Origin: Teichococcus aerophilus
GTDB taxonomy: Bacteria > Pseudomonadota > Alphaproteobacteria > Acetobacterales > Acetobacteraceae
Direction of reading: 5' to 3'
DNA length: 64,000 nt
NCBI RefSeq assembly: GCF_014490485.1
Contig: NZ_JACTVA010000011.1
Location: 18,300 to 82,299, forward strand
Part shown: one piece after another, positions 1 to 51,253 of the stretch
Numbering within the stretch: position 1 is the stretch's first letter
Layout of the letters: every line of letters begins with the position of its first letter
Made by a program: the position numbers and the translations under genes
The notes under the pieces: model-generated
Database searches by the model: none
What the model saw: the letters and a program-made list of their open reading frames with translations, nothing else
What the model was told of the DNA's origin: nothing

Positions 1-283
1 GCATGTTCTCCAGAGCCGTACCTGAGGAAACATGCTGATAAATGACTATTTTATATCAATAATTTCTCTATCCGAAGCGCAAGCTAGATGCCTCATTCTT
101 CCTGAATCGCGGGTGCAGGGGATCGTATCCCCTGCCGGGGGAGCTTGAGGGGGCGGAGCCACCTCGATCCCACCGGGACGCAGGCCGGCCCTACCCACGC
201 GTGCGCCCAAAGGAAAAGGCCGGGGAATGAGTTCCCCGGCCCTCCTTCAACACCAGCCTGGCGAACCGCCAAGCCGAGCGGCA
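1..283. other. Left-edge non-coding stretch
   Basis: No convincing gene lies here. Positions about 30-75 are clearly AT-rich compared with the rest of the window. A perfect inverted repeat with 9-bp arms and a 3-base loop lies at 115-135 and could be a terminator of a gene beyond the left edge, though it has no T tract on either side. The rnj terminator-like hairpin is at 218-241. Confidence 0.5.
218..241 (-). terminator. Terminator-like hairpin after rnj
   Basis: A perfect 10-bp stem (GGCCGGGGAA on plus) with a 4-base loop lies 42 bases beyond the rnj stop codon. Read on the minus strand it is followed by TTTTCCTTT, as expected for a Rho-independent terminator. The stem is nearly the same as the ends of the dispersed repeat family elsewhere in the window. 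Confidence 0.75.
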
Positions 284-26728: not shown

Positions 26729-26946
26729 AAGGTCGGGGGAGTGAACTCCCCCGAACCCCCTCCTTTTTTGCGGTGTTTTGGCCGATGCTGATCGGGCCGG
26801 GCTCAGCCAAATTTTTTATTTAATATCAAATAAATAGTACGAAAATATTCGGACACTTGCCAAGCTGAGGCCACCCGTCACCACCCGCACTGTCTCAGAC
26901 TCGAAGAAAAAAGAAGGGGTCCAGGGGAATTCCTTCCCCTGGCCTT
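26729..26946. repeat. Dispersed inverted-end repeat, copy 1 (variant core)
   Basis: A 218-bp unit with inverted ends fills the gap between the convergent aminotransferase and AceE-like genes. The left end (hairpin 26733-26754, then CCTTTTTT) terminates plus-strand transcription. The right end (hairpin 26921-26942, followed on minus by CCCCTTCTTTTTTCTTC) terminates the minus-strand gene. On minus, the right end matches the 49433 copy well beyond the hairpin. The core is unusual: an AT-rich island at about 26808-26855 with an inverted repeat at 26815-26834, absent from the other copies. Confidence 0.65.
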
Positions 26947-30926: not shown

Positions 30927-32188
30927 GCCGCCAGCTTCTCCATGATGCTCGGCAGGCCGGGCACCTTGCCGGCAGGCCCAAGCGCGGCCAGCGTCGGGCG
31001 GGAGCGGAAGATCATCGCGGCGGCCTGCTGCACCTGCTCGATGGTGACGGCGGCGATATTCGCCTTCGTCTCTTCCGGCGTGATGATGCGGCCATGCACC
31101 TGCAACTGGCGCGCGATCTGCTCGCACCGGCTGCCCGTGGACTCCAACGACATCAGCACCGAGGCGCGGAGCTGCGCCTTGGCGCGGTCCAGCTCATCCG
31201 TCGTGACGTCGTGCTGCACCCGCTTCAGCTCTTCCAGGGCCACCGGCACCAGCTCGGCCGCCTGGTCCTCGCCCGTGCCGGCGTAGATGGAGAATACGCC
31301 GCCATCGCGGAACGGCTGCGCGAAGGAATAGATGGAGTAGACCAGCCCGCGGCGCTCCCGGATCTCCTGGAACAAGCGGGAAGACATGCCGCCACCCAGC
31401 ACGGTGGAGAGCAGCATGGTCGGGTAGTGCCACTTGGTGGTGACCGCCGGGCCCTCGAAGCCCAGCACCACGTGCACCTGGTCCAGCTCACGCTCCTCGC
31501 GGAACTCACCGCCGGCATAGCGGGCGGGCTCGCCCAGCGCCGGGTCGACATTCGGCAGGTCGGCGAAGTGCCTCTTCACCTGGGCCACGAGGTCGTCATG
31601 CTCCAGCGCGCCAGCGGCGGCGACGACCATGCGGCTCGGGCCATAGTGGTGGCGCATGTAGTTGGTCAGCACCTCCCGCGGCATCTTGGCGATGATGCCC
31701 TCGGTGCCCAGCGTCGGCCGGCCCATCGGCTGGTCGGGGAATGCGGTGGCCTGGAAATGGTCGAAGACGATGTCGTCCGGCGTGTCGTTCGCCTGGCCGA
31801 TCTCCTGCAGGATCACGCCCCGCTCGCGCTCCAGTTCCTCCGGGATGAAGGTGGAATGCGTCAGGATGTCGCCGAGGATATCCGCCGCCAGCGGCATATC
31901 TTCCTTCAGCACCTTGGCGTAGTAGGCGGTCTGTTCCCGCGCCGTGTAGGCGTTCAGGTGGCCGCCGACATTCTCGATCTCGCGGGCGATGGCGGCGGCG
32001 TCGCGCTTGGTCGTGCCCTTGAAGGCCATGTGCTCCAGGAAGTGGGAGACACCGTTCTCCGCCGCCGTCTCGTCCCGCGTGCCGGCGTGGACGTAGGCAC
32101 CGATGGAGACGGTCTCGACGCGCGGCATGGTCTCGGAGGCAATGGTGAGGCCGTTGGGGAGGCGCGTCAGGCGCACCGCATCAGACAT
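30923..32188 (-). CDS. M16 family zinc peptidase (mitochondrial processing peptidase-like)
   Basis: This is a 421-residue insulinase-family peptidase, similar to alphaproteobacterial relatives of the mitochondrial processing peptidase beta subunit. The inverted zinc motif HFLEH is near residue 50, and the second glutamate ligand region is ELERERGVILQEI. The glycine-rich loop LGGGMSSRLFQEIRE of the C-terminal domain is intact. It lies downstream of thrC (377 bp gap) and is coupled to pmbA. The ATG at 32188 gives the normal N-terminus. No signal peptide is seen. Confidence 0.94.
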   Translation of the reverse strand: MSDAVRLTRLPNGLTIASETMPRVETVSIGAYVHAGTRDETAAENGVSHFLEHMAFKGTTKRDAAAIAREIENVGGHLNAYTAREQTAYYAKVLKEDMPLAADILGDILTHSTFIPEELERERGVILQEIGQANDTPDDIVFDHFQATAFPDQPMGRPTLGTEGIIAKMPREVLTNYMRHHYGPSRMVVAAAGALEHDDLVAQVKRHFADLPNVDPALGEPARYAGGEFREERELDQVHVVLGFEGPAVTTKWHYPTMLLSTVLGGGMSSRLFQEIRERRGLVYSIYSFAQPFRDGGVFSIYAGTGEDQAAELVPVALEELKRVQHDVTTDELDRAKAQLRASVLMSLESTGSRCEQIARQLQVHGRIITPEETKANIAAVTIEQVQQAAAMIFRSRPTLAALGPAGKVPGLPSIMEKLAA

Positions 32189-32329
32189 TCGGGGGGACTT
32201 TCTCTGTGGCCCGTGCATGGCACGCGCCGATCCATGATTCGCCATAATGTAGGGGCGAAGCCGGCGACATGCGACCCTGCGTTGTTCTGGCTGGGTTGCG
32301 TGTGTTCACTGGGTGGAAGGAGGGGGAGA

Positions 32330-32460
32330 AAGGCCAGGGAAAGAGTTCCCCGGACCCCGTCTTCCTTCCGGAAAATCGGGGCAGCGCTTCAGGACCAGAG
32401 AGGCGGCCTGGATGGATACAATGGCCGCACGGTCTGAACCGTCAGTCTCCGAGGGCCACG
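32330..32460 (+). repeat. Dispersed repeat, left-half copy
   Basis: It starts with the family end (imperfect hairpin 32334-32353, then GGACCCCGTCTTCCTT). It continues with interior sequence recognisable in the full copies, including CTGAACCGTCAGTC before a G-rich stretch. The right half and right inverted end are missing, replaced by the thrC hairpins. Confidence 0.55.
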
Positions 32461-32508
32461 GACCCTTGGCGGAACCATCGTGCCACAAGCGGCAACAGAT
32501 GGCGGGGC

Positions 32509-32531
32509 CTGGGGTGGCACCGCCACCCCAG
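32509..32531 (-). terminator. Hairpin downstream of thrC (distal)
   Basis: A perfect 10-bp stem (CTGGGGTGGC) with a 3-base loop lies on the 3' side of thrC. It lacks a T tract. With the nearer hairpin at 32538-32557 it may form a tandem transcript end. Confidence 0.5.
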
Positions 32532-32537
32532 CGGGGT

Positions 32538-32557
32538 CCAGGGGCAAGCGCCCCTGG
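32538..32557 (-). terminator. Hairpin immediately after thrC
   Basis: A perfect 8-bp stem (CCAGGGGC) with loop AAGC lies 8 bases beyond the thrC stop. No T tract follows, so the termination mode is uncertain. Confidence 0.5.
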
Positions 32558-32565
32558 TGCGTCTC

Positions 32566-33972
32566 TCAGGCCGCGTTACGCCGCGCGTGCCCGCGTACCG
32601 CCGTCTCGATGGCGGCCAGGTCGTTGGGCATCACCTCGTAGCGTTCCTCCCGCTCGTACAGATCCGCCATCCGCAACGGCAGCGGCGGGCGGAAGCCGGT
32701 GGCCTTCTCCACCGCATCCGGGAACTTGGCCGGATGCGCCGTGGAAGCGACCACGACGGGGATGCCCCGGTCCTCCGGCCGCAAGGCCCGCGCAGCGGCC
32801 GTGGCCACGGCGGTATGCGGGTCCGCCAGGTAAGCGCTTTCCGCATACAGCCGGCGGATTTCCTCCAGGATGCCTTCGTCCGAGAGGGTAAAGCCCTGGA
32901 ACAGCTCGGTCGCCCGCTTCCAGGCGGCGTCCGGCACCGGCATGCGGCCCTCGGAGCGGAAGCGCGTCATGGTCTCCGCCGTCGCCTTGGCGTCGCGGCC
33001 CAGCAGTTCGAACAGCAAGCGCTCGAAGTTGGACGAGACCTGGATGTCCATGCTGGGGGAGAGGCTGGGCTCCACCGGCTTGGCCGACATGTCGTTGCTG
33101 GCAATGAAGCGGGCCAGGATGTCGTTGCGGTTGGCGCCGACGATCAGCCGCTCGATCGGCAGGCCCATGCGGCGTGCCACCCAGGCCGCCAGCACGTTGC
33201 CGAAATTGCCGGTGGGGACCGAAAAGGCCACCGGGCGGTCCGGCGCACCCAGCGCCAGCGCGGCATAGACGTAATACGGCACCTGCGCCGCGATGCGGGC
33301 CCAGTTGATCGAGTTCACCGCCGACAGCCGCATCTCGTTGCGGAAGGGCGCGTCGTTGAACATCGCCTTCACCAGGTCCTGGCAGTCGTCGAAGTCACCC
33401 TGCACGGCGATGTTGCGGATGTTGGAGGACAGCACCGTGGTCATCTGCCGGCGCTGCACCTCGCTGGTCCGGCCCTCCGGATGCAGGATCACCATGTCGA
33501 TCGCACTGCGGTCCCGGCACGCCTCGATGGCCGCGCTGCCGGTATCGCCCGAGGTCGCGCCGACGATGGTCACCCGCTCGCCCCGCTTGGCCAGCACATG
33601 GTCGAACAACCGCCCCAGCAGTTGCATCGCCATGTCCTTGAAGGCGAGCGTGGGGCCGTGGAACAGCTCCAGCGAGAACATGCCGGGCTCGATCTGCACC
33701 AGCGGCGCCGTGGCGGCATGGCCGAAACCGCCATAGGCGGCCCGGGTCATCACCAGCAGCTCCGCCTCCGAAATCGCCGGGGCGGTGAAGAGCGAGACGA
33801 TCTTCGCCGACAGCTCCGCATAAGACAGGCCGCGCAGCGCGCGCCATTCATCGGCGGAAAGCTGCGGCCAGCTCTCCGGCATGAACAACCCGCCATCCTC
33901 GGCCAGCCCAGCCAGCAGGACGTCTTCGAATTCGCGAACCGGGGCCCCGCCCCGCGTGGAGAGATAGCGCAT
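32566..33972 (-). CDS. thrC: Threonine synthase
   Basis: This is a PLP enzyme converting O-phosphohomoserine to threonine, 468 residues, the long (class II, fungal/proteobacterial) type. The N-terminus RYLSTRG is typical. The PLP lysine is in HGPTLAFKDMAMQLLG, and the phosphate-binding region contains GATSGDTGSAA. It lies alone upstream of the M16 peptidase gene, a neighbourhood common in Alphaproteobacteria. Confidence 0.97.
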   Translation of the reverse strand: MRYLSTRGGAPVREFEDVLLAGLAEDGGLFMPESWPQLSADEWRALRGLSYAELSAKIVSLFTAPAISEAELLVMTRAAYGGFGHAATAPLVQIEPGMFSLELFHGPTLAFKDMAMQLLGRLFDHVLAKRGERVTIVGATSGDTGSAAIEACRDRSAIDMVILHPEGRTSEVQRRQMTTVLSSNIRNIAVQGDFDDCQDLVKAMFNDAPFRNEMRLSAVNSINWARIAAQVPYYVYAALALGAPDRPVAFSVPTGNFGNVLAAWVARRMGLPIERLIVGANRNDILARFIASNDMSAKPVEPSLSPSMDIQVSSNFERLLFELLGRDAKATAETMTRFRSEGRMPVPDAAWKRATELFQGFTLSDEGILEEIRRLYAESAYLADPHTAVATAAARALRPEDRGIPVVVASTAHPAKFPDAVEKATGFRPPLPLRMADLYEREERYEVMPNDLAAIETAVRGHARRNAA

Positions 33973-34318
33973 GATGCGCGCAGACTAGGCCGCCCGGCAG
34001 GCCCACGCCATAGCGCGCCTGGGGGCTTCGAAAGGGATAAGGGGAAAGGCCGGGGAAAGAATTCCCCGGACCCCTTCTTTCTTTTTCGAGTTTTTGCCGG
34101 AGTGGCTGTTGAAGGGGTGGCCCTGAGAGACGGCTGGGTGCGCCGGAGGTTCTGGACCTCCGGCGACTGACGGTTCAGCCCTTGTGGCCCATGATTAAAA
34201 TCATCAAGCAGCGTCCGCTCTCAGTCCTGCAGCGCAACGCCAAACTCGCAGAAAAAAGAAGGGGTCCGGGGAGTTCCTTCCCCGGCCTTCCACCACCCCA
34301 TCCAGAAGCCCCACGCCG
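33973..34318. other. 346-bp intergenic region xylanase to thrC
   Basis: Most of it is a complete dispersed repeat (34046-34289). The remaining about 70 bases next to thrC should hold its promoter. No gene is seen. Confidence 0.65.
34046..34289 (-). repeat. Dispersed inverted-end repeat, copy 2 (complete)
   Basis: A 244-bp unit bounded by inverted copies of AAGGCCGGGGAA. The end hairpins are at 34050-34069 and 34266-34285, and each is followed toward the inside by CCCCTTCTTT-type tracts. Reversed, it aligns along its entire length with the 45464 copy, including ACTGAGAGCGGACGCTGC, TGATGATTTTA, GGGCTGAAC and CCCTTCAACAGCCAC segments. An internal perfect hairpin with 9-bp arms (GCCGGAGGT on minus) is present. 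The right end also serves as terminator of the xylanase gene 30 bases away. No target-site duplication is apparent. Confidence 0.8.
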
Positions 34319-35512
34319 TCAGGCCCCCGCGAAGGCGCGCCGCAGGGCTTCCCACATCGCGTTGCGCCTGAAGCTGGCATCCAGGGGTAGGCCGCGATGG
34401 GTACGCGGGGCGGGCATGGCGACGCTGGGGTCGGTGGTCAGCCAGGAGTAGCGGTCGCTGAGGCCCCAGGTGAACACCGTGCGCACCCCGGCGGCCAGGG
34501 CGGTAGAGACGAAGGCGTAGGCGCGTTCGTTGACCAGCGCGTCCCGGGCCGCCAGCTCCTGCGGCGCGTCGGCGGTCTCCCGGATGTCCATCTCGGTGAT
34601 GAGGACGGAGAGGCCGGCCTGGCGCAGGGCGGTGATCAACGCGGTCAGCGGCTCCGGCCGGAAGGGCTTGGCCAGTTGCAGGTGCCCTTGCAGGCCGACG
34701 GCATCCAGCGGCACGCCGCGGGAGAGCAGGTCCCGCACCAGCGCCAACAGTCGCCGTCGCTTCTCGGCGGCGGCGGGGGTGTCTTCCTCGATGCCATACT
34801 CGTTCAGGGTGAGGCGGAGCAGCGGATCGGCGCGGCGGGCCATCCGCAGCGCCTCGTCGATATAGGCGGGGCCAAGCGCGCGCAGGAACGGCGAGTCCCG
34901 GAGTTCGAGATCCCCCGCCTGCGGGGTGTCGCTGCCCGGCGGGTCGGCGATCACTTCGTTGACCACGTCCCAGTCGCGGATGCTGGCGCGGGTATGGGCC
35001 AGGACGCGGCGGATATGCGCCTGCATGATGCTGGTGGCCCGCTCCGGCCCCTGGCCCAGGGCTTCCTCCGCCCAGGCGGGCAGGTGCTGGTGCCAGACCA
35101 GCGCGTGGCCGCGCACCAGCCTCTCCTGCGCCTTGGCCCAGGCGAGGATGCCGTCCAGCGGCGCGGTGTCGAACTCACCTTCGGTGGGCTGCAGCGCGCC
35201 CCACTTACCTTCCCATTCCGGCACCACCATCGACGCCTCGCGCCGGAAGGCGGCAGCGTAATCAGCATCGGTGGCCAGCAGGCCGCTTTGGACGGCGGCA
35301 CCGAAGGTGATGCCGTTCTGCCGCGCGATGGCGCCCAGCCCGGTCGGCAGCGACGCGGCGGCGGGGCGGGACATGGCCAGGCCAAGGCCAGCCGCGCCCA
35401 GGGCCCGCCGGGACAGGAGGGGGTTCAGGGTGCGGCTCCGGAAGGCCGGATGGGGGACCGGGTCAGGCAGGTCGCGCGCATGTCGGGCCAGCTTCAGTGG
35501 GTGCAAGGCCAT
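34319..35512 (-). CDS. Endo-1,4-beta-xylanase, glycoside hydrolase family 10, Tat-exported
   Basis: This is a GH10 catalytic domain of a secreted xylan-cleaving enzyme, about 397 residues from the ATG at 35512. The acid/base glutamate is in WDVVNEV and the nucleophile glutamate in LITEMDIRE; HALVWHQHLPAW is also typical. The N-terminus carries a twin-arginine signal (LSRRALGAAGLGLA) after an unusually long basic n-region of about 35 residues, so the true start may be further downstream. A GTG at 35533 is also possible. It is an accessory gene between atpC and thrC. Confidence 0.88.
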   Translation of the reverse strand: MALHPLKLARHARDLPDPVPHPAFRSRTLNPLLSRRALGAAGLGLAMSRPAAASLPTGLGAIARQNGITFGAAVQSGLLATDADYAAAFRREASMVVPEWEGKWGALQPTEGEFDTAPLDGILAWAKAQERLVRGHALVWHQHLPAWAEEALGQGPERATSIMQAHIRRVLAHTRASIRDWDVVNEVIADPPGSDTPQAGDLELRDSPFLRALGPAYIDEALRMARRADPLLRLTLNEYGIEEDTPAAAEKRRRLLALVRDLLSRGVPLDAVGLQGHLQLAKPFRPEPLTALITALRQAGLSVLITEMDIRETADAPQELAARDALVNERAYAFVSTALAAGVRTVFTWGLSDRYSWLTTDPSVAMPAPRTHRGLPLDASFRRNAMWEALRRAFAGA

Positions 35513-45391: not shown

Positions 45392-45777
45392 GGGGCGGTA
45401 CGGCAAGCGGATGGGGGAAGGCCTTTGTTGATGGGGGGCTCTCCCATTGCGGGAAGGGCAAGGAAGGCTGGGGAAAGAATTCCCCAGACCTCTTCTTTCT
45501 TCTGCGCGTTTGGTGTGGCGCTGCCGGACTGAAAGCGGACGCTGCGTGATGATTTTATGAATGGGCCACGCGGGCTGAACTCTCAGTCGCAGGAGGTCCA
45601 GGATCTCCGGCCCACTCAGCCGTTTCTCAGATGCGCCCCTTCAACAGCCACGCCTGAAAACTTGAAAAAGGAAGATGGGTCCAGGGAATTCCTTCCCCGG
45701 CCTTCTCTCCCCAGCACCACCCACGCGCAACACGCATCCCCCGACCGCTGCCGTCTGACGCCTGCCGCGCGTATCGG
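45392..45777. other. 386-bp convergent intergenic region
   Basis: It lies between convergent xerC (plus) and the PspA-like gene (minus). It is mostly occupied by a full dispersed repeat at 45464-45704, which provides inward terminators for both genes. I see no gene in it. Confidence 0.65.
45464..45704 (+). repeat. Dispersed inverted-end repeat, copy 3 (complete)
   Basis: A 241-bp unit starting AAGGCTGGGGAAAGAATTCC and ending in the inverted form. It is a close full-length relative of the 34046 copy (roughly four bases in five by eye), in the opposite orientation on the chromosome. The left end hairpin is followed by TCTTCTTTCTT and faces xerC. The right end faces the PspA-like gene. In the middle hairpin several arm bases differ from copy 2. 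Confidence 0.8.
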
Positions 45778-46575
45778 TCAGACAGGCCCGCCGATCTGGC
45801 GGGGGGCGCCTGGGCCGCGCAGGGCGGCAAGGCGGTCGGAGAGGCTGGCGGCGGGGCCGGCCTTGCCGGAGGCGGCGGCCAGGGCGGCGGCGATGTTGGG
45901 GTCGTCCTGCTCCGGCTTGGTCGGCGTCAGCAGCTTGGCCTTGCTGTTGGCGGCCTCGGCTTCGGCGAGGTTGCGGGCGGCAGCGTCCTGCATGGCTTTC
46001 AGCGCCACGCTGAGCCCGCTGGTGGCGCCCGAGAGGCCGGCGGCCTGGCGGGCGGCTTCGGCCCGGCGCTCCGCGGTGTCGCGCTGCTGGGCGGCGCGGC
46101 CCATGTCCCGCTCAGCGCGGGTCAGCTCGGAACGTGCGGTCTTCAGCTTCTGGCCGGCCTGGTTGTAGGTGTCCTGCAGCGTGGTCAGGAATTCCTGGGC
46201 GTCGACGGCGTCCTGCTTCTCGCGCTCCAGCTCCGGCGCCATCTCCTCCAGCATGGTGACCAGCGTGCCGAGGGAGCGCTCCAGCTCGGCCTTCTTGGCC
46301 GGGTCGGCCTCGGTGGCGGCGCGGTTCTGCAACTGCTCGGCAGCGGCCATGCGCTGCTGGGACAGGCGCTGGATGGCATCGGCCTCGCGCTGCTCTTTCT
46401 CGAAGGACTGGCGCGCTTCGGCGACCTGCAGGCCGAGCTGGTCCAGGTGCTGCTCCATGGTGCGCAGCTCGGCCTCGGTGGCCGATTTGGGGTCCCAGCG
46501 GACGATGGCCTCGACGGCGGAGCTGACGGCCTGGTCGGTCTTCACGCCGACGAGGTTACGAATGAAGGCGAGCAT
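45778..46575 (-). CDS. PspA/IM30-like coiled-coil protein (YjfJ-like)
   Basis: The 265-residue protein is mostly alpha-helical coiled coil from about residue 30 to 190, with the alternating Glu/Gln/Arg/Ala pattern of PspA/Vipp1-type membrane-remodelling proteins. It starts MLAFIRNLVGVKTDQAVSSAVEA and lacks a signal peptide, so it should act at the cytoplasmic membrane surface. The C-terminus is a Pro/Gly/Ala tail. Nearby DUF350 and DUF2491 genes match the E. coli yjfJ-yjfK-yjfL neighbourhood. The ATG at 46575 follows AGGGAGA; a longer frame to 46707 is not supported. Confidence 0.8.
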   Translation of the reverse strand: MLAFIRNLVGVKTDQAVSSAVEAIVRWDPKSATEAELRTMEQHLDQLGLQVAEARQSFEKEQREADAIQRLSQQRMAAAEQLQNRAATEADPAKKAELERSLGTLVTMLEEMAPELEREKQDAVDAQEFLTTLQDTYNQAGQKLKTARSELTRAERDMGRAAQQRDTAERRAEAARQAAGLSGATSGLSVALKAMQDAAARNLAEAEAANSKAKLLTPTKPEQDDPNIAAALAAASGKAGPAASLSDRLAALRGPGAPRQIGGPV

Positions 46576-47141
46576 GGGCGATGTCTCCCTGGGGGCGTGA
46601 TCGCCTGAGGTGGGTTCACCGAAGGCGAGGATCACTTGGTCAAACAAACTGCCCTGTGAACATGCGGAACAGGGCACGCTTCGGAACGTGATCGCCGCCG
46701 GTCGCACCGACCGGGGCGGGCATCATTCGAACGAACGGACAGTCGGAACGCCGCCGCCGCCGGTGGCGGGCAGGCTCCGGCATGATGGCCACTTGTTGTG
46801 GTGGCAGCGCGCGGATCATGCGGTCAGGCAAGGCTTGGCGGGCAACGGCGTTCGGCGGCGATGCCGGCAGCCTCGGATCGCCCGGTCGGTCACAACCAAA
46901 CACGTTATGATATCGGAACATATCCCGACAGGCGACTGTCGAAGGCCGTACTGGTCCAATGCCGATGCGCCCGGCCGTCGAACAGTGGGACAAGGGGCGG
47001 CGGACCAGCCAGGCGGTGCGGAGCGGCGCCCCGGTCACGGTAACACCCGCCCAGGTCGGTACCGGCCCGCCGGCAGCGATGTACCAGCCTGCCGAAGGCC
47101 GCGCCGCTGCTGCATTCCTCATGGCGGCGGCCTGCCGTCGC
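46576..47141. other. 566-bp gap inside the yjf-like module
   Basis: No open frame here looks like a gene: those present have GC-driven, unstructured compositions. It contains inverted repeats at 46650-46676 (8-bp arms) and 46698-46714 (7-bp arms, 3-base loop), both upstream of the PspA-like start and possibly regulatory. The stretch around 46900-46925 is locally less GC-rich. It presumably holds the promoter of the PspA-like gene and the transcript end of the DUF350 gene. Confidence 0.5.
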
Positions 47142-47555
47142 TCAGCCGGCCATGGCGCCGGCATTGAGCAAAGCCACGGCCAGTTGCAGCCCCGCCAGCA
47201 TCCATGCCGCGCCCAGATTGCCGGCCTCGATCATCTCCCGCAGCCCGCGCAGCAGCAGCGTGGCCACGGCGAAGGTCAGCAATTGCAGCGCCAGCGCCAC
47301 GATGCCCCAGACCACGATGTCCAGCGTCACCTGGCTGGTGGCCAGCGTCGCGGCCAGCGGGATGGCCAGCGCCACCAGGCTGGCGCCCAGCACGATGCCG
47401 GCGGCGGCATTGCCTTCCCGGATCAGCCGCATCTCGTGGAACGGCGTGATGGCCATGTAGAGGGCCACGCCGATGCCGAGCAGCGCCAGCGTCACCGCGA
47501 ATTGCAGGACCAGGACCGGCAGGCCCAGCCGCAGGGTATCCAGTATCACGTCCAT
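47142..47555 (-). CDS. DUF350 family membrane protein (YjfL-like)
   Basis: This is a 137-residue integral membrane protein with about four hydrophobic helices, including VLVLQFAVTLALLGIGVALYMAITP and AAAGIVLGASLVALAIPLAATL. The pattern of a pseudo-duplicated two-helix unit with an ITPFHE motif fits DUF350 (UPF0719, E. coli YjfL). Its function is unknown. It follows the DUF2491 gene by 54 bases on the same strand. The ATG at 47555 is preceded by AAGGA at longer than ideal spacing. Confidence 0.85.
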   Translation of the reverse strand: MDVILDTLRLGLPVLVLQFAVTLALLGIGVALYMAITPFHEMRLIREGNAAAGIVLGASLVALAIPLAATLATSQVTLDIVVWGIVALALQLLTFAVATLLLRGLREMIEAGNLGAAWMLAGLQLAVALLNAGAMAG

Positions 47556-47609
47556 GGCGTCATGCGTCCTTGGGCAGTCCGGGGTAGGCGTCCTTGCGGG
47601 ACGCCCAGG

Positions 47610-49196
47610 TCAGGCGAGCGAAAGCGAGGCGGCGCTGATATCCAGCCCCGCGCGGATCTCCACCCAGGCCTGCCCGCCATCCTCGATGGCGGAGACCAGG
47701 ATGTATTCGGTCTGCGGCGCCGGCTCGGCCGCGCCGGTGGGGGCGGCGTAGAGCATGGCGTGGTTCTGGATGACGCGGCGGCCGGCGGTGGTCTCCACCT
47801 CCTCCGGCATCGAGCGGGGCGGGACCATGCCGCCGCCGGGGGACCAGACGCGGTCATAGAGCTTGCCGTCCTTGGTCTGGAACTGGAACCAGCCGATCAG
47901 CCCTTCCTGCGGGTCCAGCCAGGTCTTCCATTCCTCTTCGTCGGCGGGCGTCACCTCGTCCAGCAAGGCGAAGAAGCGGCACTCGTCCGGCTCGTTGTTG
48001 GGGCCGAGATGCAGCTGGATCATGCCCTGGTCCGCCTGCAGGTACAGCCGCACCAGCGAGCCCTGCCCCTCCCCGCCGACGCGCCCTACCGCCTCCACCA
48101 CCGCCGGCTGGCCGGTGGGCGGCGGCGTCAGCTGCGTCTGCCCGGCGGCCAGGATGAAGGGCGTCGGGTCCAGTTGCACCGGCATGCCGAGGCGGAACTG
48201 GGAGGGGGCATAAGCCTCGCCCGAGGCCTTCTGGCGCAGCATGCCCGCCGCGTCCCGGATCAAGCCACCACTGGCCATGCTACTGCCTCCCTGCCTGGGG
48301 CGGCGGCGGCCCCAGAGAAACACCGCCACGCCGATGCCGCCGATCAACACCAGCGCGATGATGGCCATGGTGCCGCCGCTGCCGGAGGATTCCGTGCTGG
48401 GCGTGCGCGCGTTCGGCGCGGCGCGGCCGGTCGCCACCTCCACCGGCACGTCGGGCGGCAGGTAATTGGGGTCGCGCGGCGTCACCGCGTTCTCGGCCAG
48501 GGAGCGGTCGAGCTGCTGCAACTGGCTGCGGACCTCGGGGTCCGTCCGCGCGCGCTGCTCGGCCTCCTGCCGCCATTGCTGGTAGCCGGCATCGTCCTGG
48601 TGATGGTGGAAGAAGGCGGCGTGGGACGGATTGTTCAGCGAGCTGAGCATGAACCACAGGAAGGCGGCGTCCCACATCCCGAAGCCGCCCCGGCCCGCCG
48701 TACGCGCCTGCGGGGCATAGCCCCGGTCCCGGTACCAGCCACCGGTATAGCCACCGCCGCCACGCCCATAGCCGCCGCCATACCCGCTGCCGCCGACGCT
48801 GCCCGAGCTGCCGCTGCCATAGGGCGCGGAAGGGGCCGGCGCCTGCCGCGGATACTCGATGCGCGACTGGCTACGGGCATCGTTCTCCCGCATCCGGCGC
48901 AGCGCGTCGCCGGACTGGCTGCGGCTGTAGCCACGATCAGCTGAGGAACCGCCATAGCTGCCGACCGAGGGCGTGCGCCCGCTGGTCGATGGCCGCGAAT
49001 AACCACCGGAGGACCGGGATGGCGACGAATAGGAGCGGGAGGTGGAGGGCGAGCGGGAATAACCGCCGCTGGAACGCGGCCGGGCCTCGGCCTCGGCTAC
49101 CAGGCGGAAGGAGGATTGCGGGAACAGCACCGGGGACACGGCGCCGGACACGGCCAGCGCTGCGATGGCCAGCGGTACGGCGAAACGTCTGCGCAT
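47610..49196 (-). CDS. DUF2491 (YjfK-like) protein with long exported low-complexity domain
   Basis: This 528-residue protein has an unusual layout. Residues 1-37 form a signal-like segment (RRRFAVPLAIAALAVSGAV). Residues 40-160 are Ser/Gly/Tyr/Arg-rich, with near-repeats SSGGYSRSPSTS and SSGGYSRPSTSG and a GGGYGRGGGGYTGG run. Then come a hydrophobic patch (171-189), a FFHHHQDD segment, and a clear transmembrane helix at about 277-296 followed by RRRPR. The C-terminal 330-528 is the globular DUF2491 part (GWFQFQTKDGKLYDRVWSPGGG). The arrangement suggests an outside low-complexity domain joined to a cytoplasmic domain. The DUF2491 assignment is from memory of the family. Confidence 0.75.
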   Translation of the reverse strand: MRRRFAVPLAIAALAVSGAVSPVLFPQSSFRLVAEAEARPRSSGGYSRSPSTSRSYSSPSRSSGGYSRPSTSGRTPSVGSYGGSSADRGYSRSQSGDALRRMRENDARSQSRIEYPRQAPAPSAPYGSGSSGSVGGSGYGGGYGRGGGGYTGGWYRDRGYAPQARTAGRGGFGMWDAAFLWFMLSSLNNPSHAAFFHHHQDDAGYQQWRQEAEQRARTDPEVRSQLQQLDRSLAENAVTPRDPNYLPPDVPVEVATGRAAPNARTPSTESSGSGGTMAIIALVLIGGIGVAVFLWGRRRPRQGGSSMASGGLIRDAAGMLRQKASGEAYAPSQFRLGMPVQLDPTPFILAAGQTQLTPPPTGQPAVVEAVGRVGGEGQGSLVRLYLQADQGMIQLHLGPNNEPDECRFFALLDEVTPADEEEWKTWLDPQEGLIGWFQFQTKDGKLYDRVWSPGGGMVPPRSMPEEVETTAGRRVIQNHAMLYAAPTGAAEPAPQTEYILVSAIEDGGQAWVEIRAGLDISAASLSLA

Positions 49197-49432
49197 CCGC
49201 GATCCTGTCGGTGGACCACCGCCGCGTGGTGGTCAGCGAGACAGAGGATATAGATTTACCGCGCCATGCGCGACCAGAGCCGGAGCCTGGGCGGAAGCGT
49301 CACATCGGCTTGATGGAGCGTTGCCACCCCAGCGCCGAGACCCTTTGGGGACTGCCTTCCTGGTCAGCCACAGGCTGGTGGCGGGAACGGTCGTGTCTTG
49401 GGCGAGCTGGGCACGCCGCGCGCGGCGGCAGG

Positions 49433-49565
49433 AAGGCCGGGGAAGGAATTCCCCAGGCCCCTTCTTTTTTCTTCAAGTCAGAGATAGGGATTCGCGGCGC
49501 GCAGTGAGCCAGATGGCGAAGCCTGGGTGATTTCCAGGGCTGATCGACATTCAGCCTCAGGAGGC
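49433..49565 (+). repeat. Dispersed repeat, left-half copy next to a full copy
   Basis: It begins with the family end (AAGGCCGGGGAAGGAATTCC, then CCCCTTCTTTTTTCTTC). Its interior ends in GGGCTGAT...TCAG..TCAGGAGG, matching the first half of the full copies. It then runs directly into the next copy at 49566, so its right half seems lost or replaced. Confidence 0.6.
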
Positions 49566-49780
49566 AAGGTCAGGAGAAAGAACTCCCCTGAAACCCCATC
49601 GTTTTTTTGCCAGTTGGCGTGGAGATTCAGGACAGGCAGGTGCAGTCATGGGCCAGATGGGCTGACTTTTCAGCCCCCGGCGTAACCCTACCTGGGCTCA
49701 GAGAGGCTGACGCCCCCACGGCCACGCCCGAAAGACGCGCAGGAGAAAGATGGGGTCCGGGGAATTCCTTCCCCGGTCTT
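49566..49780 (+). repeat. Dispersed inverted-end repeat, copy 4
   Basis: A 215-bp unit with a degenerate left end (AAGGTCAGGAGAAAGAAC) followed by ATCGTTTTTTT, and a well-preserved right end (GTCCGGGGAATTCCTTCCCC). The interior keeps ATGGGCCAGATGGGCTGA and CACGGCCACGCC segments recognisable from copies 2 and 3. It is more diverged and about 25 bp shorter. The right end lies 81 bases beyond lpdA and probably terminates it. Confidence 0.65.
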
Positions 49781-49861
49781 TCGTCCCGGCCTCAAAGCCG
49801 GTTGTTTCCCGGCCAGTGCCGCATCCCGGGCGGCACCGCCACCCGGGCCGCAATCGCGGTC

Positions 49862-51253
<1,392 letters not shown>

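Follow-up and report, generated by a model that had tools for sequence, protein, structure and literature searches.

The window, by which we mean the whole stretch of 64,000 nucleotides that was analysed, contains a repeat at 45464-45704 that lies between the convergent xerC and PspA-like genes, about 73 nt from the stop codon on either side, just where the initial annotation had placed it. The left arm of this copy consists of CTGGGGAA-AGAA-TTCCCCAG followed by ACCTCTTCTTTCTT, and the right arm, read from the opposite side, of CCGGGGAA-GGAA-TTCCCTGG followed by ACCCATCTTCCTTTTT. Comparison of this copy with its own genome (5.66 Mb in 140 contigs) returned 554 first-look candidates and 40 scored full-length matches, and the best 40 matches were 81-87% identical to it. 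The only known RNA families found within the window were tRNAs.

Further elements of the same family are present elsewhere in the window (Table 1). The initial annotation described several units as lying directly behind genes. This is true of the convergent sites, but only the right arm at 49433-49780 lies behind a gene 3' end, because the flanking genes (47610-49196 and 49862-51253) are both on the minus strand, and the copy at 34046-34291 occupies a tandem gap. The pair at 49433-49780 also includes an extra weak plus-strand arm at 49573-49611. The element at 26729-26946 does stand between convergent genes as annotated, but its two arms proved to lack the conserved core between them. The interior (26770-26900) is unrelated and, for a window of 68% G+C, unusually A+T-rich (AAATTTTTTATTTAATATCAAATAAATAGTACGAAAATATT). 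In the mosaic copy at 32330-32565, the type II right arm is GCCTGGGGTGGCACCGCCACCCCAGC plus an outer hairpin; window positions 32188-32565 correspond to positions 50487-50864 of contig C13.

Table 1. Repeat elements in the window and the parts of the reference copy.
Feature	Position	Strand	Basis or context
Full copy (reference for finding)	45464..45704	+	40 full-length scored genome matches
Left arm, terminator-like read rightwards: CTGGGGAA-AGAA-TTCCCCAG then ACCTCTTCTTTC	45464..45507	+	sequence, arm statistics
Right arm, same hairpin type read leftwards, then minus-strand T-rich tract	45665..45704	-	sequence, arm statistics
Conserved core GGCCACGCGGGCTGAAC..CAGTCGCAGGAGGTC-CAG-GATCTCCGGCC	45564..45612	+	compensatory changes across copies and species
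Core palindrome	45588-45612		within conserved core 45564..45612
Second full copy in window	34046..34291	-	tandem gap, 32566-33972(-) / 34319-35512(-)
Inward arm pair without conserved core	26729..26946	.	arms 26729-26769 + and 26901-26946 -; convergent genes
Inward arm pair	49433..49780	.	arms 49433-49476 + and 49739-49780 -; tandem gap
Mosaic copy	32330..32565	.	type I left arm (32330-32368), core-like palindrome, type II right arm
Weak single arm	216..247	+	arm scan

An oriented alignment of 30 copies gave a single consensus of ~245 bp, GGAAGGCCGGGGAANGAATTCCCCGGACCCC(T/A)TCTTTTTTCTGCGAGTTTGGCG ... core ... CGAAAAAAGAAAAGATGGGGTCCGGGGAATTCNTTCCCCGGCCTTCC, in which two inverted arms surround a core of ~50 nt with an 11-bp palindrome. 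Beyond the repeat, the flanks are unrelated except for a purine/pyrimidine bias that fades over ~15 nt. Beside the palindrome, the flank consensus read by eye is GGAAGG. Each arm reads inward as an 8-bp G+C-rich hairpin followed by a T-rich tract. All eight stem pairs are intact in 160 of 208 arms and seven in another 33, making at least seven in 193/208. The stems keep their pairing through compensatory changes: among 199 usable arms, the two outer pairs occur as C-G/T-A/G-C in 175/15/2 and 138/27/25 arms. The tract after the stem is ACCCC-like and then mostly T, and 91% of type I arms have at least 8 T within the 14 nt that begin 5 nt past the stem. Neighbouring arms less than 600 bp apart face inward in 164 cases (116 + 48, from two data sets) and outward in none; at sister-species loci the ratio is 10:0. 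These results uphold the initial description of an inward-facing pair of terminator-like hairpins at the two ends of the repeat.

The core between the arms is conserved and asymmetric. Its palindrome, CGCCGGAGGTC-NNN-GACCTCCGGCG, keeps its pairing through double changes in its own genome and in relatives (CGCTGGAGG/CCTCCAGCG in Pseudoroseomonas wenyumeiae, for example). Double changes were counted in 11 of 125 cores at each of two positions, counts that are slightly inflated because some of the 125 cores are the same place counted twice. RNAalifold preferred a long-range duplex between the two arms, which we rejected as the conserved structure: C/T at column 11, the variable position of the left arm, covaries with G/A at column 28 of the same arm and not with the other arm, and each arm therefore forms its own local hairpin. 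Some arms in two species carry perfect or near-perfect palindromes of 18-22 bp (GCGTAAACGTATACGTTTACGC, ATCAAACCTATAGGTTTGAT) in place of GGACCCC in the stretch from hairpin to T-tract. Such nested-palindrome arms were seen in the present genome at C97 64296, C97 121209, C51 55921, C97 110190, C51 35151, C51 56203, C54 42808 and C58 15806, and in the sister species (G006) at D60 60669 and D115 32015.

Copy statistics cover 1.56 Mb of the 5.66 Mb genome, with genes called by a self-trained hexamer model. This sample holds 138 full copies, which extrapolates to ~500 genome-wide, an overall density that may be overestimated because contigs were partly picked for carrying matches; the comparison of gap types is unaffected by that choice. 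In the 1.166 Mb set (97 full copies, 273 arms), a single full copy shares more than 60 nt with a called gene, and the 88 arms that are not part of full copies are all clear of called genes. Leaving out contigs C1-C4, full copies occupy 43/106 convergent gaps (41%), 46/505 tandem gaps (9%) and 5/107 divergent gaps (5%), compared to 20.7, 54.1 and 19.2 expected from free intergenic length. The replicate contigs (0.39 Mb) gave 21/57 (37%), 18/233 (8%) and 2/57 (4%), respectively. The enrichment between convergent genes on which the initial annotation would have its proposal judged is therefore present (odds ratio ~7, p = 8e-14; replicate p = 2e-7). Of 45 copies in tandem gaps, 41 are in the half nearer the 3' end of the upstream gene (p = 9e-9); the median distance is 32 nt to that 3' end versus 144 nt to the next start. 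Contig C1 (285 kb; loci L176-L190) is nearly repeat-free, with a full copy in 1/41 convergent gaps versus the 43/106 on the other sampled contigs excluding C1-C4 (p = 7e-7); it could be a replicon of its own or have been acquired recently. A search for plasmid copies of the repeat gave no match.

The sister species (median protein identity 89%) has 100 adjacent gene pairs in common with the sampled contigs of the present genome. These orthologous pairs contain 11 full-copy sites in the present genome and two in the sister species, and 11 of the 13 lack the element in the other species. Several of the empty counterpart gaps measure only 1-10 bp, and the one orthologous to the copy at 34046-34291 measures 77 bp. 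Some insertions lie between genes whose sister-species orthologues abut or overlap. At C97 72355 the sister species has an evidently related remnant, and a type II element was seen by eye opposite C54 51767. Moreover, two copies within the sister species (L031 and L046) are 97% identical in unrelated flanks, the identity stopping at GGAAGGC and CCTTCCTCCC. Empty orthologous sites and near-identical copies at unrelated loci thus substantiate the portability that had been proposed, and by sequence comparison the repeat is a short terminal-inverted-repeat unit that disperses, a property it has in common with MITEs.

No convincing excess of k-mer matches pointed to a target-site duplication in the 66 copies with both outer ends. 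The Y1/RAYT transposase (PF01797) is absent from the present genome and six genus members and present in 5 of 14 control genomes. No autonomous transposon was seen between arms in ~1.6 Mb (~28% of the genome), and none was found flanking copies. Given these negative results, it is the comparison between genomes that points to mobility. Two candidate autonomous copies were rejected: by eye, the gene in C19/L315 is deacetylase-like, and C68 holds a nested palindrome with an IS5-like insertion in it. This latter insertion sequence (L299 1140-2060) has the ends GGGCCTGTC/GACAGGCCC and, by eye, an IS5-like transposase frame.

A simple terminator scan scored the plus-strand arm of 45464-45704 as terminator-like. 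Because one match is ordinary for the region (shuffles: mean 0.5, sd 0.8), the evidence that the arms are not due to chance is family-wide. A d'Aubenton-Carafa-type score was positive for 21/80 arms read inward, for 0/80 read outward and for 0/80 shuffled; the arms are directional, yet most fall below the strict threshold because ACCCC intervenes between stem and T-tract, and this spacer weakens the terminator prediction. Gene-facing arms lie at a median of 29 nt from the stop codon (273 arms, combined set), and 73% are within 60 nt. Near-consensus single arms behind genes in sister species start 0-15 nt past the stop codon in 13 of 17 cases; ten of these are in convergent gaps, where an arm faces a gene end by default. 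On these features, the type I ends of the repeat are predicted to be probable transcription terminators.

Element or arm matches were found in 15 of 16 genus relatives searched with a full copy. Beyond the genus, weak core fragments were the only matches, in 3 of 98 searched members of other genera of the family. Within the reach of these searches, the repeat is restricted to one genus of Roseomonas-like bacteria. A second version, type II, has two hairpins per arm (GGGGTGGAAAGTCCACCCC / GGGGTGACAGTGTCACCCC) and little U-tract, and is abundant in three relatives (G001, G002 and G013); type II loci include L322-L351 and L077 4907-5160. Only 2% of type II hairpin readings from these three genomes have at least 8 T of 14, which overstates the T deficit because outward readings are counted in; the inward readings shown mostly have 5-7 T. 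Type II placement is convergent at 21 of 30 loci examined, which were drawn from the best matches. The closest named relative by XerC is P. wenyumeiae Z23 (82%). The P. wenyumeiae xerC and lpdA genes converge directly across one type II element; in the window, ~4 kb containing the PspA-like and other genes lie between xerC and lpdA (45464-49787), with repeat copies at the bounds.

We consider it likely that these elements are a genus-restricted MITE/REP-like repeat with predicted, probably functional terminators at its ends, which is tolerated behind genes and in places has been co-opted there. The two arms and palindromic core would spread as a unit. A type I arm transcribed inward would fold into a hairpin like that of an intrinsic terminator, with a U-rich tract downstream, and a copy between convergent genes would probably end both transcripts. 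The build-up of copies at gene 3' ends would be due mainly to insertions being least harmful there, and some copies and single arms a few nt past stop codons would then probably act as the terminator of that gene. The initial annotation went further and suggested that the unit may be kept, and may spread, for the two-way terminator that it supplies to flanking genes, which we regard as doubtful. The strong 3'-end and convergent enrichment would fit, as would the proximity of gene-facing arms to stop codons; canonical hairpin-T terminators are also rare in this genome (27/680 gene ends), and slightly rarer at gene ends with an arm (5/242 versus 22/438, p = 0.07). However, tolerance predicts the same placement, and there is only a weak trace of selection for terminating the neighbouring gene. 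In tandem gaps, arms facing the gene 3' end score 45.5 bits versus 42.1 for those facing away (p = 0.08), with T counts of 9.2 versus 8.6 (p = 0.02), and single-arm remnants number 12 gene-facing versus 14 away. Type II elements have almost no U-tract yet lie mostly between convergent genes, and insertions that part abutting or overlapping gene pairs would be a disadvantage if termination is strong. An older hairpin-TTTT terminator, common to the sister species, already stands between gene and copy at C58 12679.

An extension of that idea, which seems to us unlikely, is that a lineage with so few canonical terminators came to rely for much of its convergent termination on a transposing two-way terminator whose arms, with or without a U-tract, are exchangeable and whose conserved palindromic core binds a putative factor. 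A role in chromosome structure is improbable: the repeat would be a putative gyrase or nucleoid-protein binding site between convergent genes, as proposed for BIMEs, and its hairpins would be secondary. Convergent placement agrees with such a role, as does a core palindrome kept genus-wide with compensatory changes while the arm type changes; but the core is missing from some arm pairs, such as 26729-26946, and its conservation may reflect the needs of transposition. It is very improbable that there is no mobile unit at all, only two ordinary terminators of convergent genes that resemble each other through a genus-wide terminator sequence. The near-consensus single arms behind sister-species genes could be taken that way, but this explanation is already contradicted by the conserved asymmetric core, by the 64 full copies in tandem and seven in divergent gaps, where two terminators are unneeded, and by the empty orthologous sites and 97% identical copies in unrelated flanks.

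For the tolerated MITE/REP-like repeat that we favour, the closest precedent is the pneumococcal SPRITE, likewise a dispersed short terminator-like repeat that is enriched between convergent genes, lies near 3' ends and has no target-site duplication shown (PMC3049150). Its authors give both tolerance and co-option readings and make the same tolerance argument, reporting the same over-representation between convergent genes for IS elements (PMC3049150). SPRITE differs in being an 18-bp single duplex with a U-rich tract and AAAA/TTTT termini, AT-rich and present in 30 copies, whereas the present repeat has two inward 8-bp stems, a conserved core, G+C-rich sequence, GGAAGG/CCTTCC ends and hundreds of copies. 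REP/BIME elements and CGTC REP dimers are also inverted intergenic palindrome pairs, found in hundreds by the 3' ends of convergent or unidirectional genes, and CGTC REPs likewise lack a dedicated transposase (PMC3733652, PMC2817692). CGTC repeats are, however, missing from Acetobacteraceae (PMC3733652), and the present repeat has no GTAG/CGTC tag by eye, no Y1/RAYT gene in seven genomes, and a ~245 bp unit with its own core and U-tracts. Bacterial MITEs (Correia/NEMIS, RUP, ERIC) are similarly small and dispersed, with terminal inverted repeats and a stable fold (PMC10969869, PMC2229807). Unlike these, the present repeat has no detected target-site duplication, no related IS that we found, and terminator-like hairpin ends. 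DNA uptake sequences often lie within genes, whereas arms outside full copies overlap no called gene. Where PMC3049150 mentions them, the Neisseria uptake-sequence terminators are alike in that a repeated sequence forms terminator hairpins. No description of this repeat family was found in searches of the open-access literature.

Convergent enrichment alone, here as in the REP and SPRITE work, is no proof of a termination role, because versions almost without U-tract are mainly there too. This genus nevertheless offers hundreds of similar two-ended terminator-like elements in a natural system, with gains that can be read against empty sites in a sister species, and the question of tolerated parasite versus recruited terminator is thereby directly testable.
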